Shown here: one piece after another, positions 23,310-44,450 of the stretch
Numbering within the stretch: position 1 is the first letter of the stretch
Layout: every line of letters starts with the position of its first letter
From: Pseudomonadales bacterium
GTDB lineage: Bacteria; Pseudomonadota; Gammaproteobacteria; Pseudomonadales; Azotimanducaceae
Length of the DNA: 54,501 bases
Assembly: GCA_030749725.1 (NCBI GenBank)
Contig: JASMJM010000030.1
Coordinates: 1 to 54,501 of the forward strand
Reading direction: 5' to 3'
The notes under the pieces: generated by a model
What the model was told of the DNA's origin: nothing
Database searches by the model: none
Seen by the model: only the letters and a program-made list of their open reading frames with translations
Translations under genes and position numbers: made by a program

Positions 23310-23705
23310 ATGGCACTATTCGAACCAATTACAACCAGCAAAGCACCTGCGGCGATCGGCACTTACTCGCAGGCGACTCGTTACGGAGACACCGTCTACC
23401 TGTCTGGCCAGATTCCGCTGGATCCCGTCACCATGGAGTTGGTATCGGAGCAGCTGGACGCTCAGATAATCCAGGTATTCAAGAATCTACAGGCAGTTTG
23501 TCAAGCTGCCGGAGGGCGCCTCGATCAGATCGTTAAGCTGACCGTATACCTTACCGATCTCGAGCACTTTGCCAAGGTGAACGAGATAATGGCCAGGTTC
23601 TTCACCACTCCCTACCCGGCACGGGTCGTCATTGGTGCTTCCGCCCTGCCACGGCGGGCGGGGGTCGAGATTGACGCCATCATGGTACTACCTGACTCAG
23701 TCTAG
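23310..23705 (+). CDS. ridA: RidA family reactive-intermediate deaminase
   Basis: Hydrolyses reactive enamine/imine intermediates (such as 2-aminoacrylate) from PLP enzymes; homotrimer. 131 residues. [24 protein letters not shown] near the N-terminus, the catalytic arginine in [13 protein letters not shown], and VEIDAIMVL at the end. 8 nt after the spoT stop, so co-transcribed. A five-copy 14-bp tandem repeat begins at the base directly after its stop codon. Confidence 0.95.
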
Positions 23706-23775
23706 GCGACCCCGTCTGAGCGACCCTGTCTGAGCGACCCTGTCCAGGCGACCCTGTCCGGGCGACCCCATCCAG
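23706..23775. repeat. 14-bp tandem repeat, five copies
   Basis: Units at 23706, 23720, 23734, 23748 and 23762, consensus GCGACCCTGTCTGA with variation in the last bases. Non-coding, between the ridA stop and recG. The period is not a multiple of three. Confidence 0.9.
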
Positions 23776-23825
23776 GATCTAGCTAACTCTCAGGACCCAT
23801 GTCAAGGTCAGCTCTAAGCAGCGGA

Positions 23826-40526: not shown

Positions 40527-41072
40527 TTATGAATTCATCGCCTGGGCCAGCTTGGCCAGTTTTCCCCGGACGCTATAGTCGATCACAGTATCCTCTGTAC
40601 GAACGATCGCTCCCCCCAACAGGGAGGGATCTACTTTCGATTCAATCCTGACTTCACGCTGAAGTTTGTCTTTCAGAATATCTTGTATTCGCTGGAACTC
40701 TCGGTCGCCAATTTCATAAGCGCTGGTTAACTCAACGTCCAGTGTCTTTTCATGGTCAGCTCTCATCAATTCATACAGCGTACATATCTGGGGTAGCAGT
40801 TCTATTCGATTCTGTTCCGCCAGGATCTGGATAAAATTCCCAGCCTGTTCATTTAGTCGATCGCCACAGATTGAGACCAGCAGATCTACGCGCTGAGTTT
40901 TGGTAAGAGCCGGATTGTCCAGCACTTCCTGCACGGAATTGTTGGCGGCCGTATCTGCAAGGATGCGAAGCATATCGGACCAATCGCCGAGCCCTTCCCG
41001 GCTGTCCAGTGCGTGCGCAAACACCGCTCGTGCATAGGGCCGAGCAACGGTCGTTAGTTCAGATTCAGCCAT
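40527..41072 (-). CDS. atpH: ATP synthase delta subunit
   Basis: Peripheral-stalk subunit linking alpha3beta3 to the b dimer. 181 residues. N-terminal helical bundle (TVARPYARAVFAHALD) and C-terminal sandwich ending in SLLGGAIVRTEDTVIDYSV, the OSCP/delta signature. The ATG at 41072 is preceded by a TAGGA ribosome site. Its start region (ATG plus about 11 codons and the leader) is present in two further tandem copies upstream, creating overlapping leader ORFs. The first codons are shared: MAESELTTVAR here, MAEPNRTTVTR in the copies. Confidence 0.97.
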   Translation of the reverse strand: MAESELTTVARPYARAVFAHALDSREGLGDWSDMLRILADTAANNSVQEVLDNPALTKTQRVDLLVSICGDRLNEQAGNFIQILAEQNRIELLPQICTLYELMRADHEKTLDVELTSAYEIGDREFQRIQDILKDKLQREVRIESKVDPSLLGGAIVRTEDTVIDYSVRGKLAKLAQAMNS

Positions 41073-41130
41073 GCCTTATCCTACGCCTACAATTGGTCCG
41101 AGTGACGGTCGTTCGGTTAGGTTCAGCCAT
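41065..41130 (-). CDS. leader ORF 2 ahead of atpH, 21 codons
   Basis: ATG at 41130 with the same ribosome site; identical to leader 1 for 17 residues, then IRHG instead of TTHG. Its TGA at 41065-41067 lies 8 nt into atpH, so ribosomes finishing here could restart on atpH. Whether it is translated is unknown. Confidence 0.4.
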   Translation of the reverse strand: MAEPNRTTVTRTNCRRRIRHG

Positions 41131-41188
41131 GCGTTGTCCTACGCCTACAATTGGTCCGAGTGACAGTCGTTCGGTTAGGTTCAGCCAT
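41123..41188 (-). CDS. leader ORF 1 ahead of atpH, 21 codons
   Basis: ATG at 41188 with TAGGA six bases upstream; peptide begins MAEPNRTTVTRTN and is arginine-rich (C-R-R-R) at the end. It stops with a TGA at 41123-41125, inside the next ORF's start region (8-nt overlap). Product function unknown; may only couple translation. Confidence 0.4.
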   Translation of the reverse strand: MAEPNRTTVTRTNCRRRTTHG

Positions 41189-41237
41189 GCGTTGTCCTAC
41201 ACTTATAATTGTGCCGAGCAACTGCGTTATCCCACGC

Positions 41238-41708
41238 TTACAGTTGCGCTGCCAGTCTGTTCAGCATTTCCTTATGGGTTTCACGATCGATACTGGCTTC
41301 CAGGATCTTCTCCGCCCCCTGCAGCGCAAGCATACTCACCTGGGCTCGCAACTGTTCTTTCGCTCTGTTGATTTCCTGCTCGATTTCCGCGTGGGCGGCT
41401 TTCTTCAACCTGTCGCCCTCCTCCCCAGCCGTCACCTTGGCCTCTTCAATGATCTGGCTGGCACGCTTATTGGCCTGATCGATCAGCTCGGCGGATTGCG
41501 TCTTCGCCTGTTCAAGCGCCACGGCCGCGTCATTGCCGGCCTGCTCCAGTTGTTGCGCAGCCTTATCCGCATTTTCGAGTCCCGCCGCTATGGTCTGCTG
41601 TCTTTCCCGCATGATCCCGATAAGGGGCGGCCAGATAAACTTCATACAGATCCAGACAAAGATGGAAAAGGATATCAGTTGACCGAACAGGGTAAGGTTT
41701 ATACTCAC
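41238..41708 (-). CDS. atpF: ATP synthase b subunit
   Basis: Fo peripheral-stalk subunit, membrane-anchored dimer. 156 residues, as in E. coli. One N-terminal membrane helix (LFGQLISFSIFVWICMKF, 7-24), then a long charged helix through the C-terminus (AEIEQEINRAKEQLRAQVSM). Encodes ...NRLAAQL at its end, where the repeat region begins. 39 nt after atpE. Confidence 0.97.
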   Translation of the reverse strand: MSINLTLFGQLISFSIFVWICMKFIWPPLIGIMRERQQTIAAGLENADKAAQQLEQAGNDAAVALEQAKTQSAELIDQANKRASQIIEEAKVTAGEEGDRLKKAAHAEIEQEINRAKEQLRAQVSMLALQGAEKILEASIDRETHKEMLNRLAAQL

Positions 41709-43398: not shown

Positions 43399-44274
43399 TC
43401 AATGCTCCGATCCTTCCGTCCCCATCAAATGCACCAGAATTCCATCCAGTTCATCCAGGCTGTTGTACTTGATTGTCAGCCTTCCCTTACCCTTCGCCGT
43501 GTGGTGAATGGAAACCGGTTGTGCCAGCTTTTCCGAAATCTGTTCCTCCAACTGTCGGGTATCCACATCCACTCTCTGGGTTTGTTGGTTTCCGGTTTTT
43601 CCAGCGACCAGTCTGCGCACCAATGATTCTGTTTGTCTTACATTGAGCCCTTTGCTAACGACATCTCTAGCGACCAGATCCTGCTGTTGGTCGGTCAGGG
43701 TCAACAACGCTCGCGCGTGGCCCATCTCCAGCTCACCCTTCTCCAGTAGTGCTGCGATGGGCGCGCTCAGGTTCATCAGACGCAGGAAGTTGGTCACCGT
43801 AGTACGATTCTTGCCAACTGCGTCAGCCATTTGCTGGTGAGTCAAGTGAAACTCATCCTGCAATCGCTGCAGGGCGGCGGCCTCCTCCATGGGATTCAGG
43901 TCTTCCCGTTGAATGTTCTCGATAAGTGACATGGCGACTGCTGATTCATCGCTCACATCTCGTACGATGACAGGGATTTTATCCAGTCCTGCCTGTTGGG
44001 TAGCGCGCCAGCGTCTTTCTCCGGCTATGATTTCGTAATTGTCTGTGGCTACCGTTCTGACCACGATTGGCTGTATTACGCCCTGCGTTTTGATCGACTC
44101 GGCCAGATCCGACAGGGTGTCAGCGTCCATCTCATGGCGCGGTTGGTACTTGCCGGGATGGATGAATTCCACGGGAATCTCACGTAACGCCACACCCTGT
44201 TCCGCGGGAGACGGTTCCGACGATCCCAACAATGCGTCCAGGCCACGGCCCAGACCTCTTTTTCGATTAGTCAT
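43399..44274 (-). CDS. parB: chromosome partitioning protein ParB
   Basis: CTP-dependent DNA clamp loading at parS. 291 residues from the ATG at 44274 (MTNRKRGLGRGLDALLG; the initial TTG frame is rejected). N-terminal ParA-stimulating peptide (RGLGRGL), CTP-binding domain with GERRWRA at 85-91 and ENIQREDLNP, helix-turn-helix (LTHQQMADAVGKNRTTVTNF), and a C-terminal dimerisation domain. Its start region lies at the end of a degenerate tandem repeat. No canonical parS was found in the window. Confidence 0.96.
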   Translation of the reverse strand: MTNRKRGLGRGLDALLGSSEPSPAEQGVALREIPVEFIHPGKYQPRHEMDADTLSDLAESIKTQGVIQPIVVRTVATDNYEIIAGERRWRATQQAGLDKIPVIVRDVSDESAVAMSLIENIQREDLNPMEEAAALQRLQDEFHLTHQQMADAVGKNRTTVTNFLRLMNLSAPIAALLEKGELEMGHARALLTLTDQQQDLVARDVVSKGLNVRQTESLVRRLVAGKTGNQQTQRVDVDTRQLEEQISEKLAQPVSIHHTAKGKGRLTIKYNSLDELDGILVHLMGTEGSEH

Positions 44275-44450
44275 ATTCAGGCCCAATTAACATCACATCC
44301 TCTGCATTCAGATTCCATCACGCACCTGGTCACATGCCGCTCCAATGACATCACGTAATCTGCAGTCATTCCATCACGCACCCAGTCACATTCCGGTCCA
44401 AATAACATCATGCCTCTGCAGACAGATCACATCGCGCACGTCGATCTCCA
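44275..44450 (-). repeat. degenerate tandem repeat carrying copies of the parB start region
   Basis: On the minus strand the motif TGGACCGGAATGTGAC at 44400 recurs as TGGAGCGGCATGTGAC at 44344 and as the parB start TGGGCCTGAATATGAC at 44285, with a weaker relative at 44450. Periods about 50, 56 and 59. TGCGTGATGGAAT and CTGCAGA are also repeated. Fills the parA-parB gap. Confidence 0.75.

Follow-up and report, generated by a model that had tools for sequence, protein, structure and literature searches.

Tandem copies of the atpF-atpH junction belong to a class of 56-59 bp intergenic arrays in a Pseudomonadales genome

The junction between atpF and atpH in a Pseudomonadales bacterium (Azotimanducaceae) consists of head-to-tail copies of a 58-bp unit, and these copies place two short overlapping ORFs in front of atpH. 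Arrays of nearly the same period were found at unrelated gene boundaries of the same genome. We regard the atp array as probably one of many local duplications of about 58 bp across this genome, which survive best where the leaders that they create stop near the next start. The DNA analyzed was the forward strand of contig JASMJM010000030.1 (assembly GCA_030749725.1), positions 1-54,501. This whole stretch of 54,501 nucleotides is referred to as the window, and the features discussed here are collected in Table 1.

The array was detected by TRF at 41040-41218 with a period of 58, 3.1 copies, 88% matches and a score of 260. A direct-repeat finder returned three copies of the unit with spacings of 58 and 58. 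The copies thus lie head to tail at a constant period, as in a minisatellite or a tandem duplication. An earlier reading of this DNA, the first-pass annotation, had described a 58-bp unit occurring twice upstream of the atpH start plus a partial copy at the atpF stop, and both programs as well as the alignments confirmed this. The unit (22 + 36 nt) begins with the final 8 nt of atpF, continues through a 14-nt gap with an AGGA ribosome site and runs 36 nt into atpH. The true atpH start is the ATG at 41072, which yields an N-terminus resembling that of atpH in relatives. The atpF stop is the TAA at 41240-41238 on the minus strand. Three full copies were found, together with the remnant of a fourth at the atpF stop. 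The 23-nt deletion in this remnant took the TG of its start and seven codons; its alignment score to the whole unit was reached by none of 2000 shuffles. The two leader copies are more alike (54/58) than either is to the atpH copy (49/58 for leader 2, 45/58 for leader 1), and they have changes in common that are absent from atpH. Thus the unit diverged first and was then recopied.

Table 1. Features of the atpF-atpH junction and the second array of the window (positions in the window)
Feature	Position	Strand	Basis
atpH, F1 delta subunit	40527..41072	-	NCBIfam F0F1 ATP synthase subunit delta, E 6.7e-61, above cut-off
Unit copy with the true atpH ribosome site, start and first 12 codons	41037..41094	-	Sequence comparison
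Leader ORF 2, 21 codons; TGA 8 nt inside the atpH start	41065..41130	-	Translation
Extra unit copy with the leader 2 start	41095..41152	-	49/58 identity to the atpH copy
Leader ORF 1, 21 codons; TGA 8 nt inside the leader 2 start	41123..41188	-	Translation
Extra unit copy with the leader 1 start	41153..41210	-	54/58 identity to the leader 2 copy
Fourth-copy remnant, 35 nt: atpF end, ribosome-site-like stretch, 23-nt deletion	41211..41245	-	Alignment to the whole unit
atpF, Fo b subunit	41238..41708	-	NCBIfam F0F1 ATP synthase subunit B, E 3.7e-60, above cut-off
Array at the parA-parB junction, period 56, 2.7 copies	44269..44421	-	TRF

Translation of the extra copies gave two peptides of 21 residues each (MAEPNRTTVTRTNCRRRTTHG for leader 1 and MAEPNRTTVTRTNCRRRIRHG for leader 2), and the earlier description of two ORFs of this length, each with a TGA inside the following start, holds. 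The 8-nt overlap arises because the start reads ATGGCTGA and a length of 58 leaves one base over a multiple of three. The same ATGGCTGA start is present letter for letter in 13 of 35 atpH loci of relatives. A stop-start spacing of -8 nt, as seen for both leaders, belongs to a class known from natural overlapping gene pairs. According to an excerpt of PMC12548453, spacings of -4, -1 and -8 nt are enriched in such pairs, and coupling declines as the overlap becomes longer. In both leaders the start, the ribosome-site-like AGGA and the 8-nt overlap are intact. Shine-Dalgarno pairing was -4.2 to -4.6 kcal/mol for leader 1, leader 2 and atpH, and does not rank the three starts. The first-pass annotation had drawn a coupling chain from atpF through leader 1 and leader 2 to atpH. 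Its later links stand on the 8-nt overlaps; its first link is a gap of 49 nt between the atpF stop and the leader 1 ATG, so that leader 1 has no overlap with atpF. The RNA of the 231-nt leader region was predicted to fold no better than shuffled sequences (z +1.17; 178/200 shuffles at least as stable). Searches against Rfam gave no match at gathering score in the 54,501 bases of the window, and none at E up to 1 between 40900 and 41400.

The junction was compared with its counterparts in other genomes. A protein search detected atpH in 56 of 58 genomes, the present one counted. Gaps were compared at loci from 29 of the 55 relatives with an atpH match plus six more, which gave 35 loci (33 distinct ones, as two contigs appear twice; the start of locus L010 was set one codon early). 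The atpF-atpH gap measured 1-74 nt at these loci versus 165 nt in the window, and E. coli K-12 has a plain gap of 14 nt. Array DNA was not found in the 57 other genomes, where the single short match was the end of the query with the true atpH start; this set includes none from the same genus, and its nearest named members are a Pseudomonadales MAG and an OM182-clade MAG. The short gaps and the absence of array DNA indicate that the atp array is young on the scale of genera. Comparison of this gap in related genomes had been suggested earlier as a check on a regulatory role, and its outcome speaks against such a role.

For the survey of similar arrays, 80 stretches and the window were combined to a sample of 1,222,968 bases, or 32% of the genome. 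The stretches were contigs 1 to 76 by number and five further pieces of two long contigs, chosen without regard to content, and cover mainly the first 20 kb of each contig. Our own detector found 37 arrays that are not wholly inside an ORF. Fourteen of them have a period of 56-59 (one, in L046, being REP-like), and periods of 49-55 and 60-61 were represented by zero arrays. Among the 17 arrays with periods of 50-70, 14 fall in the 56-59 range (uniform p 3e-8), and 0/20000 lognormal draws placed 14 arrays in any window four wide. TRF likewise assigned a period of 56-59 to 13 of 31 arrays (period at least 30) in the 1,222,968 bases, 11 if the window is left out. The peak has somewhat blurred edges, since TRF also reported two arrays at period 65 and one each at 50, 55, 62 and 63. 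As a control, a Markov-resampled version of the 1.22 Mb sample was passed through the identical detector and gave zero repeat hits. The sample of relatives came from ten genomes with 1,055,941 bases in total, unevenly distributed (18,638 to 273,415 bases each); in this sample a period of 56-59 was found in 0/11 arrays by our detector and 0/19 by TRF. E. coli K-12, sampled over 200,000 bases, yielded no 56-59 array with either method (TRF 0/1). Within ORFs, the period was a multiple of three for 14/15 arrays of this genome and 19/21 of the relatives, a pattern to be expected where duplications that break the frame are removed.

Each array copies its own surroundings and is located at or near a gene boundary. 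BLAST revealed no similarity between arrays, with the exception of elements in L042 (6341-6481), L046 (4008-4230), L115 (6193-6343) and L146 (1-168). These carry GGGGACAGT...TTAATT-like cores and share sequence with one another, unlike the 56-59 bp arrays; we presume that they are rightly called REP-like. The second array of the window copies the start region of parB (ParB domain, E 1.7e-57), and the two extra copies have GTG where the real copy has ATG (44274). The atp case has its clearest counterpart at recD, whose start region is duplicated with a period of 56 (L041, 5731-5910). This creates two 19-codon leaders, each of which overlaps the next start by 4 nt (ATGA). Starts are also copied at rsmE, nfo and a sigma factor gene, which like recD score above NCBIfam cut-offs, and at one nucleoside hydrolase and one acyl-CoA ligase gene, which are strong matches below the cut-offs. 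No start is copied where the array covers the 3' end of a gene (L049, L075 and L076) or the intergenic DNA of a divergent pair (L056), which argues against coupling as the reason for the class. One array, in L153, sits at a contig start. Two repeats of other kinds were also recorded: a tandem repeat with a period of 14/28 at 23705-23776 of the window, at the end of a plus-strand ORF (end 23705), and a direct repeat of about 139 bp that encloses a tRNA-Thr (CGT), with two predicted copies, at L058 7153-7522.

The fate of the copied starts was then evaluated. These tests of start retention and of stop position were post hoc, with ranges picked after the data had been viewed, and the copies share history. 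At six junctions (atpH, recD, nucleoside hydrolase, rsmE, acyl-CoA ligase and sigma factor) an NTG was present in 13/13 recognisable extra copies, with GTG in place of ATG at rsmE. Between -22 and +14, the TG columns were invariant in 12/12 cases versus 151/204 for other columns (p 0.03). For the four junctions with the firmest starts the figures were 8/8 versus 99/136, which is not significant (p 0.09). Addition of parB and nfo gave NTG in 16/16 copies (p 0.002), and addition of parB, nfo and L153 gave 18/18 versus 206/306 (p 0.001); the copies of these three were placed by strings starting at the start codon. Copy -1 of parB is without a match, and four further copies in L153 carry TTA at the start position. 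An earlier count, with limits that reached beyond the unit edge, had given 17/18 versus 189/282 (p 0.009). For the position of the last leader stop, the reference was a simulation of duplications at 992 gene starts, taken from simple ORF calls in this genome. It fell within -16 to +8 of the true start at 8/9 junctions versus 0.36 simulated (p 0.002), and within -2 to +8 at 5/9 versus 0.21 simulated (p 0.02). Leaders overrunning the true start by more than 10 nt were expected in 42% and observed at 1/9 junctions (nucleoside hydrolase, +26). The counts lend weak support to a tendency of copied starts to remain start codons and to a tendency of leaders to stop near the next start. We read this pattern as a filter against harmful duplications and not as evidence of regulation.

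No factor setting the length of the unit was found among hairpins, sequence shared by BLAST, or loss of ExoI or RecJ. Hairpins within the units as a cause of slippage had a mean z of 0.28 over 13 arrays, and the genes for both ExoI and RecJ are present. The match to SbcD was weak and did not reach the cut-off (E 7e-4); since only 1/19 genomes scored above this cut-off, SbcD does not single this genome out. The gene ssb had zero matches in the assembly, while 21 of 24 genomes have one and G038 and G044 are likewise without a match. Generally, ssb adjoins uvrA. Here the uvrA locus (L198, contig C136) ends 262 nt beyond the uvrA match, and in one relative a transporter-like gene lies before ssb. 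An assembly gap or contig end is the likely cause of the missing match, and true loss of ssb was set aside as a lead because the contig seems to end so soon after uvrA. Binding modes of 56 and 65 nt are described for single-strand-binding protein. The footprint of its tetramer covers about 30-70 nt (PMC4652220). The likeness of about 58 bp to this footprint is a lead only. One could imagine that duplication is ongoing in this lineage and is measured off by a built-in ruler of some 58 nt, such as a looped-out nascent strand bound by one SSB tetramer. Units would keep being added at gene boundaries, selection would retain those whose copied starts hand ribosomes over to the real gene, and chains of coupled leaders would form at dozens of genes. 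We offer this as speculation and think it unlikely.

The observations can be arranged into the following course of events. A lineage-specific mutational process would repeatedly duplicate about 58 bp of local DNA. Inside a gene such a duplication would break the frame, except at lengths divisible by three. Across a gene boundary it would be harmless, with the upstream gene kept intact by the first copy and the downstream gene by the last. The atpF-atpH junction would have been copied in this way at least three times, with one copy later losing its start, and the leader ORFs would be a by-product of copying start regions. Survival would be best where a leader stops at or near the next start and lets translation pass on to the real gene, at atpH by way of the 8-nt overlap. 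Three elements of this scheme are conditional: that the leaders are translated, that they are coupled, and that some step in replication or repair would set the length. The surviving arrays look compatible with translational coupling, by the weak post hoc tests given above.

Other explanations were weighed against this one. The first-pass annotation had proposed that the leaders set the amount of delta subunit relative to b and c, or that an arginine-rich leader senses the translation rate; selection would then keep them as a dedicated regulator. The starts, AGGA motifs and overlaps retained in both leaders would suit such a device, as would the coupling described for the E. coli atp operon. 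Either role is undermined by arrays of like period at parA-parB, recD, rsmE, a nucleoside hydrolase gene, a divergent pair and a gene 3' end, that is, at unrelated genes and even at boundaries where no start is copied. The leader peptides are diverged copies of the atpH start (SEL to PNR), and the leader RNA folds no better than shuffled sequence. Furthermore, the upstream remnant is already without a start, the 35 relative loci (33 distinct) have short gaps, and array DNA was found in none of the 57 other genomes. We consider a dedicated regulator improbable, while an effect of the array on atpH output is possible. The first-pass annotation had named neutral slippage as its null explanation, and this came closer than the regulator. 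As pure debris the copies would drift freely and be translated to no effect. Local origin, divergence between copies, the deletion in the remnant and the arrays without a copied start agree with this, a 58-bp unit with the ATGGCTGA start automatically produces the overlap, and start retention is not significant at the four firmest junctions. Against it stand the NTG kept in all 13 recognisable extra copies at six junctions and the clustering of leader stops, both from weak post hoc tests. In addition, a period as sharp as 56-59 bp needs more than a single accident and is left unexplained by neutrality alone. We think pure debris unlikely, although it deserves some weight.

Insertion of a mobile MIRU-like or REP-like family at the start codon would also give leaders. 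An excerpt of PMC12548453 describes the apparent insertion of mycobacterial interspersed repetitive units (MIRUs) at start codons, with coupling of an internal ORF to the gene, and REP-like elements do exist elsewhere in this genome. However, the atp unit is built from atpF and atpH sequence, has no other good match in the genome (next E 0.7), and differs from the units of other arrays, which makes a mobile family very improbable. An artefact of the draft assembly is hardly credible. The assembly comprises 173 contigs, its contamination is estimated at 3.04%, and the L153 array lies at a contig start, but the full atp copies differ by 4 to 13 of 58 bases and the arrays lie between intact ORFs within contigs. 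We therefore retain the preferred reading, a local duplication of about 58 bp that survived at a gene boundary. If the period peak holds genome-wide and in sister species, the arrays document in nature a mechanism that duplicates DNA in steps of a preferred length; such a preference, we infer, is not predicted by simple slippage models. They are also natural experiments on copied gene starts, in which it can be tested how tightly translational coupling constrains gene boundaries. The atpH case itself warns against inferring a leader-peptide switch from a local duplication.

Among known systems, translational coupling in the E. coli atp operon (reportedly studied by Hellmuth 1991, Rex 1994 and Pati 1992) has the operon and the gene in common with the window, with the difference that the K-12 gap is the plain 14 nt. 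A second comparison is with the MIRUs. In an excerpt of PMC12548453 these are short, repetitive and apparently mobile repeats at gene starts, which couple a small ORF to the gene at a spacing of -4 nt with little effect on expression. The atp array likewise gives small ORFs that overlap the next gene start (two of 21 codons, with 8-nt overlaps). However, each array of the present class copies its own junction, the atp leaders overlap the next start by 8 nt (those at recD by 4 nt), and the atp array is no part of a dispersed family with shared sequence. The resemblance to MIRUs is one of effect, not of membership. Bacterial minisatellites or VNTR loci consist of tandem units of tens of bp in a few diverging copies, and the mycobacterial typing loci include units of 57-59 bp. 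The atp array matches this description as a few diverging tandem copies of a unit of tens of bp. It differs in that a sharp period of 56-59 bp recurs over unrelated sequences in one genome, with none in the samples of ten relatives. The arrays are thus best called intergenic minisatellites of a preferred-period class, so far from this one genome.
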